Positions 2,308 to 9,660 of a stretch of DNA of 64,000 nt are shown piece after piece. The notes beneath the pieces were generated by a model. That model made no database searches, was not told the DNA's origin, and saw only the letters and a list, made by a program, of their open reading frames with translations. The stretch's first letter is position 1, and each line of letters opens with the position of its first letter. The stretch lies in contig VGRF01000024.1 in NCBI GenBank assembly GCA_016875395.1, positions 1 through 64,000 on the forward strand, written 5' to 3'. The position numbers and the translations under genes are program-made. Origin of the DNA: Deltaproteobacteria bacterium. Lineage in GTDB: Bacteria; Myxococcota_A; UBA9160; UBA6930.

Positions 2308-3288
2308 ATGAGATTGCACGCTGCGCTCTGCGCCCTGCTCGCTCTCGCTTCAGCGCCCGCGCGCGCGCAGGAGGCGCCCGCGGAGGACGCGAGCAGCGCG
2401 CCCGTCGAGGAGATCCAGATCCTCGGCGAGCGCCCCGGTCCGCAGCTCTGGAAGATCACGAACGGCGAGCACACGCTTTGGTTGTTAGGGCTGTTGCAGC
2501 CCTTGCCGAAGCGCATGCAGTGGAAGTCCGGCGCGGTGGAGCAGGTGCTCGACGAGTCCCAGGAAGTGATCGCGTCGGGCGCCGCTGTGGGTGCGCGCAT
2601 CGGACCGATCAAGCTCTATCGGCTGTATCGCCAATGGCGCGGCCTCCGCGTGAACCCGAACGAGCAGACGCTCGCCGACGTGCTGCCGCCGCCGCTCTAC
2701 GCGCGCTTCGAGACGCTGCGCGTGAAGTACGCGCCGCGCGATCGCGACATGGCGGAGCTGCGGCCGATCTTCGCGGCGGGCGCGCTGTTCCAAGCCGCGG
2801 TCGATCGCGTCGGCCTCACGACCGAGAACGACGTCCACGACCGCGTCGAGAAGCTCGCGAAGAAGCGCGATCTCCCGATCCGCCAGGTGAAGCTGATGCT
2901 GGAGAACCCGAGCGACACGCTCGGTGCGCTGGGCGACATCCCGCTCGCGCAAGAGATCGCGTGCCTCGAGACGACGATCGCGCGCCTCGAGACCGACGTG
3001 GACGCGATGCGCGTGCGCGCGACGGCGTGGGCCGACGGCGACATCGACGCTTTCAAGGCCGCGGCGTACCCGGATCAGCAGCAGGCGTGCTGGAACGCGA
3101 TCGGCAGCGCGGGCGAGATCAAGCCGCTGATCGAGCAGGCGCAGCGCGACTGGCTCGCGTTCTTCGACGCCGCGCTCGCGAGCAGCAAGGTGTCGCTCGC
3201 GATGCAGTCGATGGACCGCGTGCTCGCGCCCGACGGCGTGCTCGCGCATGCGCGCAGCCAGGGATACGAGGTGCGCGGGCCGGAGTAG
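2308..3288 (+). CDS. TraB/GumN-family exported protein
   Basis: A 326-residue protein with a signal peptide of about 20 residues (MRLHAALCALLALASAPARA). The mature part begins like TraB/PrgY/GumN proteins (LWKITNGEHTLWLLGLLQPLP), with an alternating helical C-terminal half. The ATG at 2308 follows GAAGGAG. In the family, the first conserved block usually ends in a Gly-x-x-His metal-ligand motif. Here the corresponding place reads GLLQ, so a key His appears to be Gln. The protein may therefore be a non-catalytic relative. Function is otherwise unknown. Confidence 0.7.
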   Translation: MRLHAALCALLALASAPARAQEAPAEDASSAPVEEIQILGERPGPQLWKITNGEHTLWLLGLLQPLPKRMQWKSGAVEQVLDESQEVIASGAAVGARIGPIKLYRLYRQWRGLRVNPNEQTLADVLPPPLYARFETLRVKYAPRDRDMAELRPIFAAGALFQAAVDRVGLTTENDVHDRVEKLAKKRDLPIRQVKLMLENPSDTLGALGDIPLAQEIACLETTIARLETDVDAMRVRATAWADGDIDAFKAAAYPDQQQACWNAIGSAGEIKPLIEQAQRDWLAFFDAALASSKVSLAMQSMDRVLAPDGVLAHARSQGYEVRGPE

Positions 3289-3323
3289 TTGCGGCCCTCG
3301 GCCTCGCGCGAGACTCTGGGCCC

Positions 3324-4964
3324 ATGCGCATCGCGCTTGCACAAATCAATCCCACCGTTGGCGACCTCGCGGGCAATCGCAAGCTGATCGAGGAGGCCGC
3401 TGCGCGCGCGAGCGCCGAGCGCGCGGATCTCGTCGTGCTGCCCGAGCTCGCGCTGACGGGCTATCCGCCGCTCGATCTCGTCGAGCGCGACGGCTTCGTG
3501 CGCGATCAGCTGCGCGAGCTCGAGGCGCTCGCGGCGGCGTCGCGCGGCGTCGCGATCGCACTCGGCGCGGTGCTGCCCGTGCCGCAGCGCGACGGGAAGA
3601 AGCTCGCGAACGCGGCGGTGTTGCTCGCCGGCGGGAAGCAAGCGTTCGCGCAGGCGAAGACCCATCTGCCGACGTACGACGTGTTCGACGAGAAGCGCTA
3701 CTTCGCGCCGGCCGAGGAGCGCGAGCTTGCGGCGCTACCGAGCGGCGCGCGCGTCGGCCTGACAGTTTGCGAAGACGGCTGGGTGGATCGCGTCGGCTAC
3801 AGCAAGGATCCCACCGGCGAGCTCTCACGAAAGGGCGCGCAGCTCGTCGCGAACCTCAGCGCCTCGCCGTGGCACGCGGGCAAGCCGGCGGAGCTGCGCC
3901 GCATCTTCTGCGAACTCGCCGCGAAGCGCAGCGTGCCGATCGCGTTCTGCAACCAAGTGGGCGGCAACGACGAGCTGATCTTCCACGGCGGCTCGTTCGT
4001 TGCAGACGCGCGTGGCCGCGTGCTCGCGCAGCTCCCGCTCTTCGAGCCCGCCTTCGCGGTCGTCGACCTCGACACGCAGGCGGCGACGGCGCCAGAAGCG
4101 GTGCGCGAGCCCGAGCCCGTCGCCCAGCTCGAGCGCGCGCTCGTGCTCGGCATCCACGACTACTTCCGCAAACAAGGCCTCCCGCCCGGCGCCGTGATCG
4201 GCCTCAGCGGCGGCATCGACTCCGCGCTGACGGCGCACCTCGCCGTCGAGGCATTGGGGCGCGACAAAGTCACCGGCGTCGCGATGCCGGGACCGTTCAG
4301 CTCCGATCACTCGATCGAAGACGCCTACGCGCTCGCGAAGAACCTCGGCATCACGATTCGCACGGTCGACATCAAGCCGATCTACGAGAGCTATCGGCGC
4401 GTGTTCGCGGAGCTGTTCGGCGCGAAGGACAACTACGGCCTCGCGCAGCAGAACATCCAGTCGCGCATCCGCGGCGCGACGCTGATGGCCGTCTCCAACG
4501 CCGAGAACCGCCTCGTGCTCGCGACCGGCAACAAGAGCGAGCTGTCGATGGGCTACTGCACGCTCTACGGCGACACCGTCGGCGGCATCGCGGTGATCGG
4601 CGACGTCTACAAGCGCGACATCTACGCGCTCGCGCGGCACGCGAATCGCGAACGCGAAGTGATCCCGTGGCGCACGATCGAGAAGCCGCCGAGCGCCGAG
4701 CTCGCGCCGAATCAGAAGGACAGCGACGACCTGCCCGAGTACGGCGTGCTCGACGCGGTGCTCGAGCAAGCGATCGAAGGCGAGCGCGCAGCGGCCCTAA
4801 TCACTCCGCCGCCCGGCGCCACGCGCGAGACCGTGGCCGGCATCGTGCGCCGCGTCGACCGCAACGAGTACAAGCGCCGCCAAGCGCCGCTCGTGCTGCG
4901 CGTCTCGCCGAAGGCTTTCGGCAGCGGGAGGAAGCTGCCGATCGTGCATCGCTATCAGCTGTAG
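3324..4964 (+). CDS. nadE: glutamine-dependent NAD+ synthetase
   Basis: A 546-residue two-domain cytosolic enzyme that makes NAD+ from deamido-NAD+, ATP and glutamine. The N-terminal nitrilase-type amidase domain (about residues 1-260) has the Glu41 / Lys112 / Cys149 triad (LPELALTGYPP, AKTHLPTYDVFDE, TVCEDGW). The C-terminal synthetase has the PP-loop GLSGGIDSAL and later ATGNKSELSMGY. The ATG at 3324 was chosen because MRIALAQINPTVGDLAGN is the standard N-terminus; the frame stays open upstream but carries no family sequence. The length is typical of the bacterial two-domain form. Confidence 0.96.
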   Translation: MRIALAQINPTVGDLAGNRKLIEEAAARASAERADLVVLPELALTGYPPLDLVERDGFVRDQLRELEALAAASRGVAIALGAVLPVPQRDGKKLANAAVLLAGGKQAFAQAKTHLPTYDVFDEKRYFAPAEERELAALPSGARVGLTVCEDGWVDRVGYSKDPTGELSRKGAQLVANLSASPWHAGKPAELRRIFCELAAKRSVPIAFCNQVGGNDELIFHGGSFVADARGRVLAQLPLFEPAFAVVDLDTQAATAPEAVREPEPVAQLERALVLGIHDYFRKQGLPPGAVIGLSGGIDSALTAHLAVEALGRDKVTGVAMPGPFSSDHSIEDAYALAKNLGITIRTVDIKPIYESYRRVFAELFGAKDNYGLAQQNIQSRIRGATLMAVSNAENRLVLATGNKSELSMGYCTLYGDTVGGIAVIGDVYKRDIYALARHANREREVIPWRTIEKPPSAELAPNQKDSDDLPEYGVLDAVLEQAIEGERAAALITPPPGATRETVAGIVRRVDRNEYKRRQAPLVLRVSPKAFGSGRKLPIVHRYQL

Positions 4965-5696: not shown

Positions 5697-6398
5697 TTGG
5701 CGACGCGCGCGGTGTTCTTCGATCTCGGCGGGACGCTGTTCAGCTACCGCGCGACGCGCCCGCACTTCGACCGCGTGCTCGAGGGGCTCGCCCGCGAGCA
5801 CGGCATCGCGGAGCCCGCAGGCGAGCTGCGCCGCGTCTACCGCGAGGCGATGGCGCGCGCGGACGCAGTGCACAACCCGCGGCCCTACTACCTGCACCGC
5901 GACATGTTCCGCGACGCGTACCTCGGCTTTCTGCGCAGCTACGGCCTCACCGCGCGCGACAGCGAGGCGCTCTACGAGGGGCAGAGCCGCGTCGGCGCGG
6001 AGCACATCTCGCTGCGCGCCGGCGTGCGCGAGACGCTCGCCGCGCTGCGAGCGCGGGGGCTCCACCTCGGCATCGTGAGCAACATCGATCAAGACCAGTT
6101 CGACGCGATCTGGGCGCGCCTCGACATCGCGCACCTCTTCGACGCCACGACCACGAGCGAGGAAGCGCGCTCGTGCAAGCCCGACCCGGGCATCTACCGC
6201 GTGGCGCTGCGCAAAGCGCCAGGCATCACCGCGCGCGAGGTGCTGTTCGTCGGCGACTCGCCGCCGCACGACTTCGCGGGCGCGAAACCGCTCGGCATGC
6301 GCACGGCCTGGATCCAAGAGCGCGAGGCAGAGCCCGCGGAATCGATGCGCCCGGATCACGTGATCCGCGAGATCCCCGAGCTGCTGGGGCTGGTGTGA
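5697..6398 (+). CDS. HAD-superfamily hydrolase
   Basis: A 233-residue cytosolic phosphatase-type HAD protein. Motif I is VFFDLGGTLF (here D-L-G-G-T: the first Asp is present, the usual second Asp is Gly), motif II is IVSNID, motif III Lys is in CKPDPGIY and motif IV is FVGDSPPHDFAGA. Replacement of the general acid/base Asp by Gly is uncommon in phosphatases of this family. The start is TTG at 5697, chosen for the strong AGGAGGCGA at 5682-5690. Its stop overlaps the next start by four bases (GTGTGA), so it is translationally coupled to the PheC-AroQ gene. Confidence 0.85.
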   Translation: MATRAVFFDLGGTLFSYRATRPHFDRVLEGLAREHGIAEPAGELRRVYREAMARADAVHNPRPYYLHRDMFRDAYLGFLRSYGLTARDSEALYEGQSRVGAEHISLRAGVRETLAALRARGLHLGIVSNIDQDQFDAIWARLDIAHLFDATTTSEEARSCKPDPGIYRVALRKAPGITAREVLFVGDSPPHDFAGAKPLGMRTAWIQEREAEPAESMRPDHVIREIPELLGLV

Positions 6399-7660
6399 AC
6401 ACATCGCGGCGTTCGCAGCGCAGCCTCGCGCGCTTCGCCTTCCTGCTCTTCCTCACGCTCGCGGCGGCCGCCTTCGCGCAGCCGAAGCCCCTTCGCATCG
6501 GAGTCACGGGCGATTACCCGCCGCTCGTCGCGCGCACGGGCGATGGCGACTACGTCGGCTTCGACGCGGACGTGGCGCGCGCGTTCGCGGAGCAGCGCGG
6601 CTACGCGCTCGAGTGGGTGCCGGTGACGTGGCCCGAGCTCGCGGCGGCGCTTGCGGCCGGGCGCTTCGATGTCGCGATGACCGGCGTGACGGTGCGCGCG
6701 GATCGCTCGGTCGCGGGGCGCTTCACGGTGCCCGTCGCGGAGTCGGGCGCTGCGGTGCTGGTGCGCGACGCCGCGCTCGCGAGCGAGGCCGCGCTCGCCG
6801 CGCCCGGCGTCGCGCTCACGGTGAACGCGGGCGGGCATCTCGAGCGCGTCGCACGCGCGCGCTTCCCGGGCGCCGCGATCACCGCGCTCCCTGACAACTC
6901 GGCGGTGCGCGATGCGTTCGCCTCCGGCGCGGCGAGCGCAGTGGTCACGGACACGCTCGAAGCGCCGCGCTGGCGCAGCGCAGTGCCCAGCGCGCAGCTC
7001 GTCGGCCCGCTCACGCGCGACGTGAAGGCCTACTGGTTGCCTGCCGACCGCGCGGCGCTCGCGAGCGAGCTCGACGCGTGGCTGCTCGCGCGCGAGGCCG
7101 ACGGCACGCTCGCGCGACTGCGCGCGCAGTGGCTCGGCGCGGACGCGGCGCAGCGGCGCCCCGCGCTGCCCGCGCTCGCGCTCGTCGCGGTGCTCGCGGA
7201 GCGCCTCGCGCTGCAGCCGCACGTCGCAGAGGCCAAGCGCGCGAGCGGTGCGCCCGTGTTCGCGCCCGAACGCGAGGCGCAGCTGCTCGATTCCGCGATC
7301 GCGGCGACACAGGCGGCGGCTCGCGCGGCGCAGCGTCCAGCGCCCACACGCGCGGCCCTCGCGAAGTTCTTCACCACGCTGTTCGAAGTGAGCCGCAGCA
7401 TCCAGACCACCGTGCTCGCGCAGCCGGCGCCCGAGGCGGCGCCCGCGTTCGACCTCGATACCCAGCTTCGCCCCGCGCTCACGCGCCAGACCGAGCGCGT
7501 CGCGGCGCTGTTGCCGCTGCTCCCGATGGGGCTCAGTCAGAGCGCGCTCGCCGAGGAGCTCGCCGCGCGCACCAGCGACGTCGCCGGCCTCAGCGATGAA
7601 GCGCGCGCACAGCTCGCGGCCGCGCTGGCAGAGCTCGCCGCCGCGCGGCGCGCCCATTAG
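6395..7660 (+). CDS. pheC-aroQ: exported cyclohexadienyl dehydratase / chorismate mutase fusion
   Basis: 421 residues starting at GTG 6395. A signal peptide (about 1-28, ending AFAQ) is followed by a periplasmic-binding-protein fold matching cyclohexadienyl dehydratase (PheC), residues about 32-248: RIGVTGDYPP, GFDADVARAFA, FDVAMTGVTV, VNAGGHLERVA, LPDNS, VTDTLEA and KAYWLPADRA. Residues about 262-340 match the exported gamma class of AroQ chorismate mutase: LAERLALQPHVAEAK, APVFAPEREAQLL and FEVSRSIQ, with Arg270, Lys281, Arg293 and Gln337 as likely active-site residues. The last 80 residues are an Ala-rich helical tail. The two domains catalyse consecutive steps (chorismate to prephenate, then to phenylpyruvate), so one periplasmic polypeptide could do both. 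Membership of both families is from motif recall. Confidence 0.82.
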   Translation: MNTSRRSQRSLARFAFLLFLTLAAAAFAQPKPLRIGVTGDYPPLVARTGDGDYVGFDADVARAFAEQRGYALEWVPVTWPELAAALAAGRFDVAMTGVTVRADRSVAGRFTVPVAESGAAVLVRDAALASEAALAAPGVALTVNAGGHLERVARARFPGAAITALPDNSAVRDAFASGAASAVVTDTLEAPRWRSAVPSAQLVGPLTRDVKAYWLPADRAALASELDAWLLAREADGTLARLRAQWLGADAAQRRPALPALALVAVLAERLALQPHVAEAKRASGAPVFAPEREAQLLDSAIAATQAAARAAQRPAPTRAALAKFFTTLFEVSRSIQTTVLAQPAPEAAPAFDLDTQLRPALTRQTERVAALLPLLPMGLSQSALAEELAARTSDVAGLSDEARAQLAAALAELAAARRAH

Positions 7661-7669
7661 GGAGTGCGG

Positions 7670-8263
7670 CTACTTACAGCGGTAGTGCCCGACGATCGCG
7701 AATTCGAAGAGGCGATCTTCGATCTGCGTCCCGGCGCCGATGTTGTGGACGAGCAGCGGACGCGCGCCGTCGGCGCTGCGCTGCGCGGCGACGATGCCGA
7801 TGTGCGGGAGATTTCCCGGCAGCGTGTACGCGACGATGTCGCCCGTCGCGTAGTCTCGCGCGTTCTTCGTGATCGGCAGCGAGAAGCCGCGGCGTGCGAA
7901 GTAAGTCTGCAGGTTGAGCACGCGGCGGTGGTCGATGCTGCGGTCCGTGCTCCGCAGGCCCCAGTTCTTCGGATACGACGCGAAGTGCGCGCGCATGTCC
8001 TCGTGCACGAGGCGCTGCAGGTCCACGCCTTGCCTGCGCAGCGCGCGGATCACGACATCGCTGCACACGCCGCGTTCGAGCGGAACGTCGCCGTTCGGGT
8101 ACGCGAGCTTCGTGTAGGCCGGGTCGTAGTGCAGCGTGACGCCGACCTGCGCGACTGCCGCCGCGGCGAGGCGCTGCCCGAACGTGGCGTCGGCGGCGGC
8201 GGCGAGCGCGAGTCCCGTGACGAGTGCGGCGCACAGCGCAGCGGCGGCGCGGCGCGCGCGCAC
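7670..8263 (-). CDS. DUF1287 family exported protein
   Basis: 197 residues with an N-terminal signal peptide (about 1-25). It has the conserved DUF1287 (YijF-type) sequence: QVGVTLHYDPAY, LAYPNGDVPLERGVCSDVVIRALR, LVHEDMRAHFASYP, ARRGFSLPITKNARDY and LPHIGIVA. The Cys in RGVCSDV and the His in PHIGIV suggest a papain-like (NlpC/P60-related) fold acting in the envelope; that is inference. A GTG at 8263 with GGTGGGA six bases upstream is the likely start; a TTG at 8269 is the alternative. The corA stop lies just upstream, so the two are probably co-transcribed. Confidence 0.85.
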   Translation of the reverse strand: MRARRAAAALCAALVTGLALAAAADATFGQRLAAAAVAQVGVTLHYDPAYTKLAYPNGDVPLERGVCSDVVIRALRRQGVDLQRLVHEDMRAHFASYPKNWGLRSTDRSIDHRRVLNLQTYFARRGFSLPITKNARDYATGDIVAYTLPGNLPHIGIVAAQRSADGARPLLVHNIGAGTQIEDRLFEFAIVGHYRCK

Positions 8264-8265
8264 GC

Positions 8266-9327
8266 TCAATCCCACCAGCCGCGGCGACGGAACCAGAGGA
8301 TCAGGCCGACCGCGACGGCGCCCATGAACAGCATCACGACGGGGTAGCCGAGCTTCGCGTGAAGCTCGGGCATGTAGTCGAAGTTCATGCCGTAGATGCC
8401 GACGATGAACGTGAGCGGGATGAAGATGCTCGACACGAGCGTCAGCACCTTCATCACTTCGTTCGTGCGATGGCCCACCTGCGAGAGATAGATCTCGGTC
8501 GCGAGGCCGGCGAGCTCGCGCGAGGAGTCCGCGAGCTCGACGATCTGGCGGATGTGCTGCTCGGCGTCGCGGAGGTACACGCGCGCGGCGTCGCTCACGA
8601 AGGCCGAGGGCTCGCGCGCGAGCTCCCCTAACGCCTCGCGCTGCGGCCAGCCCACGCGCCGGATCACCGTGAGCGCGCGCCGCACCTGCTGAATGCGCGG
8701 CAGCTGCGTGCTCGACGCGCGCTCCACCACCTCCGCCTCGAGATCTTCGAGCTGCTCCGCGAGCTGCTGCACGACGGGGAAGTAGCGGTCCACGACCGCG
8801 TCGATCAGCGCGTACGCCAGGTAGTCCGCGCCGTGGCCGCGAATCTCCTCGATGCCATCGCGAATCTGGGCGCGCACGGGATCGAAGAAGCCGCGCCGAT
8901 GGTCTTGCATCGTGATCAGCCAGCCGCGGCCGAGAATGATGCACACCTGCGGCGTCTCGACGCCGCCGCCCTCCGTGAGCACCGGCACGCGGCACACGAT
9001 CACGTGCTCGTGTGCGTGCACCTCGGACTTCGCGCGCTGCGGCACGTTCGTCGCGTCTTCGAGCACGAGCGGGTGAAGCGCGAAGACTTCCGCGATCGCC
9101 CACAGCTTGTCCTCGTCGCGAAAGCCCTGAACGTCGACCCACACCGTGGTCTCGGGCTTCACGTACATCCGCAGATCCTGCGGATCCTCCACGTCGCGCT
9201 CGCGCAGAACGCCCGTCGTGTACTCGAAGACGTGGATGCGCGTGGGCGCCGCATCCGCAGGAATCGCGAGCGTGCCCGGCGCGGAGCCAGGCGGCGGCGT
9301 GTTGTGCTTCGCCACCGCGGGCGGCAT
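8266..9327 (-). CDS. corA: CorA-family divalent cation transporter
   Basis: A 353-residue inner-membrane magnesium/cobalt channel subunit. The long cytoplasmic N-domain (about 1-285) contains the alpha-helical stalk (VVQQLAEQLEDLEAEVVERA). Two C-terminal membrane segments follow, the first ending in the signature YGMNFDYMPEL, where GMN is the selectivity-filter motif, and the chain ends in a basic tail (WFRRRGWWD). The ATG at 9327 gives the normal length. It is downstream of the small H1-like gene and upstream of the DUF1287 gene on the same strand. Confidence 0.92.
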   Translation of the reverse strand: MPPAVAKHNTPPPGSAPGTLAIPADAAPTRIHVFEYTTGVLRERDVEDPQDLRMYVKPETTVWVDVQGFRDEDKLWAIAEVFALHPLVLEDATNVPQRAKSEVHAHEHVIVCRVPVLTEGGGVETPQVCIILGRGWLITMQDHRRGFFDPVRAQIRDGIEEIRGHGADYLAYALIDAVVDRYFPVVQQLAEQLEDLEAEVVERASSTQLPRIQQVRRALTVIRRVGWPQREALGELAREPSAFVSDAARVYLRDAEQHIRQIVELADSSRELAGLATEIYLSQVGHRTNEVMKVLTLVSSIFIPLTFIVGIYGMNFDYMPELHAKLGYPVVMLFMGAVAVGLILWFRRRGWWD

Positions 9328-9362
9328 CGGCGCTCGCGCCGCTCGCTGCTTGTGGCGTCGCG

Positions 9363-9521
9363 CTATTGCAGCCGCCTCAGCGCGTGCGCGAGAGCAACCT
9401 TCCGCAGATCGGACGAAATCTCGGGCCCCGCCGCCTTCGCCTTCTTCGGCGCCTTCGCCACGGCCTTCTTCGCCGCCGCCTTCTTCACCGGCTTCGCCTT
9501 CTTCTTCGCCTTCGCCGCCAT
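9363..9521 (-). CDS. 52-residue Lys/Ala-rich histone H1-like protein
   Basis: A small frame with ATG at 9521 behind AAGGGGTGAGCG and a TAG at 9363. The first 31 residues are almost only Ala, Lys, Pro and Val (MAAKAKKKAKPVKKAAAKKA and on), like the C-terminal tail of histone H1 or the AlgP/HctB-type bacterial basic proteins. The last 21 (GPEISSDLRKVALAHALRRL then Q) look like one amphipathic helix. The likely role is nucleic-acid binding or nucleoid compaction. It lies 35 bp upstream of corA on the same strand. The coding call rests on the ribosome-binding site and on the strongly lysine-biased frame. Confidence 0.6.
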   Translation of the reverse strand: MAAKAKKKAKPVKKAAAKKAVAKAPKKAKAAGPEISSDLRKVALAHALRRLQ

Positions 9522-9660
9522 CGCTCACCCCTTCCGAATGGCCGCGCACGATAGAGGCTCAAACAACCCCGCGCGCCTCCCAATTCCTCCTCACCGACCT
9601 CAGTGCCTCGCGCTGGTGGGAATGGTCGCGCCGCGGAAACGGCTGACGCACCTCACCGAC

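Follow-up and report, generated by a model that had tools for sequence, protein, structure and literature searches.

A predicted exported fusion of a cyclohexadienyl dehydratase-like domain and a γ-AroQ chorismate mutase domain, from a clade with a changed dehydratase pocket

Exported fusions of cyclohexadienyl dehydratase (CDT, PheC) and chorismate mutase (CM) were described in 2023 by Stocker et al., with structures (8cq3, 8cq4, 8cq6) and kinetics for both domain orders, CMCDT and CDTCM (PMC10520331). CDTCM proteins of three β-Proteobacteria, Janthinobacterium sp. HH01, Duganella sacchari and Massilia phosphatilytica, were assayed and two were crystallised (PDB 8cq4, 8pnh, 8cq6; PMC10520331). 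The characterised CDT-CM fusions are monomers with CM and CDT activity and a low-micromolar Km for chorismate; neither feedback inhibition nor channelling was found (PMC10520331). The published fusions have a standard CDT site and were termed "extremely rare" (nine species; PMC10520331). The gene considered here has the CDT-CM order and is located at 6395–7660 (+ strand) of the window, i.e. the whole 64,000-nucleotide stretch analysed (contig VGRF01000024.1, positions 1 to 64,000, of the Deltaproteobacteria bacterium assembly GCA_016875395.1). Its product belongs to a clade of fused proteins in which part of the CDT pocket is replaced. The domain order, which an earlier note on this DNA had taken to be uncharacterised, is not new: it was published in 2023 (PMC10520331; PDB 8cq4, 8cq6).

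Architecture of the fusion protein

The gene encodes 421 amino acids (GTG start, TAG stop) and, as the earlier note had proposed, combines a signal peptide, a PheC-like domain and a γ-AroQ domain. The signal peptide (residues 1–28, 6395–6478) was predicted by eye: the N-terminus reads MNTSRRSQRSLARFAFLLFLTLAAAAFA, followed by QP, with cleavage after AFA, and resembles a typical substrate of signal peptidase I. Export of the protein is inferred from this N-terminus. The CDT-like domain (residues 32–248, 6488–7138) matches Pfam SBP_bac_3 (1.4e-27, 96.5 bits, cut-off 26.4). The CM domain (residues 253–421, 7151–7657) matches CM_2 (1.5e-9, 38.4 bits, cut-off 27). The γ-AroQ model TIGR01806 gives 2.3e-7 and 30.9 bits, better than chance but under its curated cut-off of 74.15; other members of the clade that were scanned score 44–63 bits and JbCDTCM, the Janthinobacterium protein, 86.7. 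The profile check suggested in the earlier note thus came out in favour of both Pfam families and short of the cut-off for TIGR01806. The best PDB matches are exported CDT-CM fusions and CDTs.

The CM active-site set of the window protein is R270, K281, R293, Q337 and R359. The C-terminal half thus contains the Arg, Lys and Gln residues and, by its TIGR01806 score, is above chance level against γ-AroQ, so the condition on which the earlier note would have dropped the fusion claim does not apply. R270, K281, R293 and R359 correspond to the catalytic Arg49, Lys60, Arg72 and Arg134 of γ-AroQ. K281 (7235–7237) is equivalent to MtCM Lys60 and to K287 of JbCDTCM, the essential CM lysine (PMC10520331).

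The AlphaFold2 model of the fusion protein (mean predicted local distance difference test score, pLDDT, 95.6) has 8cq6, 8pnh and 8cq4 as top Foldseek matches. The overall root-mean-square deviation from the known fusions, about 23 Å for the full model, presumably reflects a different placement of the two domains relative to each other. In structure alignments the CDT-like domain is 34–36% identical to AncCDT-5 and to PaCDT, the PheC of Pseudomonas aeruginosa (Z about 27). A model of residues 253–421 alone (pLDDT 95.8) aligns with the secreted CMs 2gbb (Z 18.8, 150 aligned residues) and 2fp2 (Z 16.2, 154 aligned), and less extensively with the AroQ-α CM of Escherichia coli (Z about 10 over 88 residues). 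The domain is a single-chain helical fold of about 150–170 residues, longer than AroQ-α. The Ala-rich C-terminus of 80 residues, described in the earlier note as a third part, is therefore not a separate module but the second half of the γ-AroQ fold: the family profile aligns to the unfused secreted CMs 6cnz and 2gbb nearly to their C-terminus, the model covers the whole domain, and the C-terminal helices include R359, equivalent to Arg134 of MtCM.

Four groups of described proteins are close to the window protein. CDTCM fusions share its domain order, export signal, both folds, length, catalytic Glu and CM Lys; further shared CM features are Val or Leu for Gln76, Ser or Ala for Thr105 and Gln for Glu109, and a cytoplasmic PheA is also common to both. 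CDTCM fusions differ in that the window clade lacks three CDT residues and the window protein both cysteines; they were reported only from three β-Proteobacteria, whereas fusions of the window clade are found in most members of an uncultured order and turn up sporadically across several phyla. PaCDT (3kbr, 5hpq) has the same solute-binding protein (SBP) fold and is exported, and its Tyr22, Trp60, Arg85, Asn128, Asn152, Thr169, Glu173 and Lys198 all have equivalents in the window protein; it differs from the latter, which lacks Lys100, Thr132, Asn133 and the disulphide, is fused to a CM and falls in a separate clade. Secreted γ-AroQ CMs (MtCM 2fp2, Yersinia 2gbb, Burkholderia 6cnz) resemble the whole CM domain, including the C-terminal helices (Z 16–19, about 150 residues), and their Arg49, Lys60, Arg72 and Arg134 have equivalents there. 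Unlike them, the window CM is fused to a CDT-like domain, has Asp69, Gln76, Glu106 and Glu109 replaced and scores below the TIGR01806 cut-off. CMCDT fusions of γ-Proteobacteria (Aequoribacter 8cq3) are exported and contain the same two domains, but in reverse order and with canonical CDT residues.

The changed pocket and its possible ligands

Homologues were taken from relatives of the window genome, from fetched regions and from a genome scan in which each species was represented once (best 80 of 416 relatives). The alignment includes 92 fused sequences, PaCDT, JbCDTCM and MpCDTCM. A changed pocket is shared by 91 of the 92 (a few of the 91 possibly representing one genome twice): three of the nine CDT active-site residues are replaced, and the other six are kept in the window protein. 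The position of PaCDT Lys100 is occupied by Ala (77 sequences), Pro (13) or Val (1); that of Thr132 by His (76), Val (5), Ala (4), Tyr (3) or Ile (3); that of Asn133 by Leu (90) or Met (1). In the window protein these are A119 (6749–6751) and H148-L149 (6836–6841, GGHLE motif). The canonical motif VNPGGTNE is accordingly VNxGG[HVAIY]LE in the altered clade.

Other positions are kept. Glu173, the general acid, Asn128, Asn152 and the carboxylate-binding Arg85 are invariant in all 91; Tyr22 and Trp60 are invariant wherever the fragment covers them; Lys198 (window K211) is found in 86 of the 91. T99 and R104 of the window protein, direct carboxylate ligands, are invariant in the clade, as are Arg49 and Lys60 of the CM domain. 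The general acid of the window protein is E189 (6959–6961), equivalent to E200 of JbCDTCM (PMC10520331). The residue equivalences are firm, because E200 and K287 of JbCDTCM, the sites of the published knock-outs, are recovered correctly by the numbering used. The change lies in the substrate pocket, since in the structure of JbCDTCM with MES (2-(N-morpholino)ethanesulphonic acid) Thr159, equivalent to Thr132, touches the sulphonate, and Lys127, equivalent to Lys100, makes a water-mediated contact (PMC10520331).

No Cys occupies either CDT disulphide column in the window protein. In a subclade with GG[VAI]LE-type motifs (L056–L065, L141, L146, L188–L190), Pro takes the place of Lys100, and a GGPC...CEP cysteine pair may form a disulphide at a site resembling the one in PaCDT.

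A maximum-likelihood tree of the CDT domain was built with 85 altered sequences. These form one clade (support 100), outside the group of characterised CDTs (PheC) and sister to the canonical CDTs (support 91, on a thinly sampled side). CDT-like proteins are separated from ordinary SBP paralogues (support 92). An equivalent of Glu173 is absent from all 14 unfused non-CDT SBP paralogues compared, and no unfused protein with the altered pocket was seen among 377 genomes of the phylum. The CM tree, with only three unfused γ-AroQ sequences, joins the two fused types at 90; the CDT tree places the unfused PaCDT with the fused JbCDTCM.

The reading slightly favoured is that the protein is exported and bifunctional and belongs to a second, divergent clade of CDT-CM fusions, in which prephenate would be passed to a retooled dehydratase domain. 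The C-terminal γ-AroQ domain, judging from its conserved catalytic set, would convert chorismate to prephenate outside the cytoplasm. The N-terminal domain, a putative catalytic descendant of an amino-acid-binding protein, would receive the prephenate, with its carboxylate held by T99, R104 and K211 and its ring by Y41, W79 and N168, and E189 would donate a proton to the leaving hydroxyl. The likeliest product would be phenylpyruvate or the product of a close prephenate analogue. Where all characterised CDTs have the patch Lys100, Thr132 and Asn133, the clade has Ala or Pro, then His (or Val, Ala, Ile, Tyr), then Leu; a difference from PheC in specificity or kinetics is therefore to be expected. 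Loss of the patch argues against an unchanged PheC, and retention of the general acid against a mere binding protein. The sequence of steps from chorismate through prephenate to phenylpyruvate, put forward in the earlier note, is not secured, given the replacement of three of the nine CDT active-site residues throughout the clade.

Several observations weigh against this bifunctional reading. The absent residues include Thr132, which contacts the carboxylate mimic, as well as Lys100 with its water-mediated contact. Position 132 is Val, Ala or Ile in 12 sequences. The tree includes only 7 canonical CDTs, of which two are reconstructed sequences. In the CM domain, equivalents of Asp69 and Gln76 are missing (A290 and L297 instead), and the TIGR01806 score stays below the cut-off.

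The loss of Lys100, Thr132 and Asn133 in the whole clade, together with the SBP ancestry, would also fit a non-catalytic N-terminal module that captures a ligand (prephenate made by the CM, phenylpyruvate or some other compound) in order to sense it or pass it on, and a sensing role was already proposed for such fusions by Stocker et al. (PMC10520331). A lipobox-like motif precedes the CDT domain in 26 of 80 homologues (e.g. L118, L122, L079); these may be anchored lipoproteins instead of free periplasmic proteins, which would suit such a module. A pure binder would have no need of Glu173, however, which is invariant in 91 of 91 and absent from ordinary SBP paralogues, and no transporter or receptor gene recurs nearby. 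A binding module is considered rather unlikely.

The systematic, conserved replacement of one pocket patch is unlike random decay, and the catalytic Glu and ring-binding residues stay. This, with the separate clade, would agree with catalysis on another substrate or with another outcome (arogenate, an amino-deoxy analogue, a non-decarboxylating step), without formation of phenylpyruvate. Against it, prephenate is what the fused CM would supply, the direct carboxylate ligands T99 and R104 never vary in the clade, 86 of 91 sequences retain K211, and no residue indicates a specific other substrate; this alternative is held to be unlikely.

As to the role of the fusion, Stocker et al. suggest that chorismate which leaks from lysed cells is scavenged or sensed (PMC10520331); such a role would be compatible with the present findings.

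Distribution and gene neighbourhood

In the 377 genomes sampled from the phylum, the fusion is found in 65 of 79 genomes of the order that includes the window genome, in 6 of 11 genomes of the class's other family, and in none of the other 287. The order includes the MAG called UBA9160, as the genome of record L095 and the order member G032 give an identical PheA match. Several members of the order that lack it have small genomes (2.0–2.8 Mb). The published description of the fusions as "extremely rare" therefore fails for the altered type. The 91 altered sequences are mostly from metagenome-assembled genomes (MAGs) of Myxococcota; others are from Sorangium, Minicystis, Archangium, Binatota and a Bacteroidota. 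Carriers identified in the scan of one genome per species include Sorangium cellulosum So ce26, Minicystis rosea, Archangium, Hyalangium, a Binatota MAG, Xanthovirga (Bacteroidota) and an Opitutales MAG.

The fusion is patchy in the Minicystis family (3 of 60). Unfused CDTs of this family keep Lys, Thr and Asn; the fused ones read GGVLE. Two of its genomes (G447 and G409; L184–L187) encode an unfused canonical CDT and a separate γ-AroQ protein, which are possible unfused counterparts of the fusion. An Opitutae MAG (L142, 7896–9167), outside Proteobacteria and the source of the one aligned fusion without the changed pocket, encodes a canonical-type CDT-CM fusion that keeps Lys100, Thr132 and Asn133, contrary to the published restriction of CDT-CM fusions to β-Proteobacteria.

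Genes conserved near the fusion within the order are a long upstream gene (2478–4964), judged by eye to resemble NAD+ synthase, and those encoding a cold-shock protein, aconitase and a protein of queuosine salvage. As these are housekeeping genes, the fusion gene appears to be vertically inherited in a housekeeping region. They point to no role, and the neighbourhood was rejected as a functional clue.

The gene immediately upstream (5697–6398, + strand) encodes a HAD-family hydrolase. Its stop codon (6396–6398) overlaps the GTG of the fusion (GTGA), and its motif I reads DLGGT, with Gly in place of the second Asp, whose absence the earlier note had pointed out. Its best NCBIfam model, TIGR02253, is below the cut-off. 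The HAD gene adjoins the fusion in 4 of 80 related loci, all from the family of the window genome and 53–60% identical. Being confined to these close relatives, the adjacency says little about the function of the fusion, and the hydrolase is a weak candidate for a functional partner. On the other side, a gene encoding a DUF1287 protein (7673–8260, − strand; 4.1e-67) is convergent with the fusion gene and is followed by a CorA transporter gene (8266–9549, − strand).

Phenylalanine supply and the question of export

Both pathway steps are present in one protein, as would suit a route to phenylalanine, whether as a backup or as the main one. The genome that contains the window, like most carriers of the fusion, also encodes a cytoplasmic CM-prephenate dehydratase (PDT) PheA (G000:C19:73449-74219), so phenylalanine supply is unlikely as the role of the fusion, and export would take the enzyme out of the pathway. 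Two MAGs of one genus (g5; G004 and G009) carry the fusion without any PDT match. Both also lack tyrA; as for the syntenic trpB, G004 lacks it and in G009 only a divergent copy (55% identity) was found; aroA, located elsewhere, is present. This gap looks like missing sequence or a general aromatic amino acid auxotrophy, and replacement of PheA by the fusion in this genus was not upheld. A phenylalanine route is accordingly regarded as very improbable.

No description of the clade in Myxococcota or Deltaproteobacteria turned up in the literature searched, although this does not prove that none exists. Fusions of this kind are already known; as far as that literature shows, the separate clade, the altered pocket and the near-universality in an order are not described.

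Why enzymes of the shikimate pathway are exported is an unsolved question, on which the published fusions, rare and with a standard site, gave little comparative power. The fusion is near-universal in one order and occurs in cultured Sorangium, Minicystis, Archangium and Hyalangium, with a conserved alternative pocket, which makes the question testable. Fused and unfused, canonical and altered enzymes form a natural set, some of them in culturable bacteria. The altered clade may, tentatively, be another family of exported proteins, acting either as two-step enzymes or as sensors, in which a CM is permanently joined to a CDT-derived domain with a pocket rebuilt for a reaction or ligand other than that of PheC, and which is kept in most members of an uncultured order.
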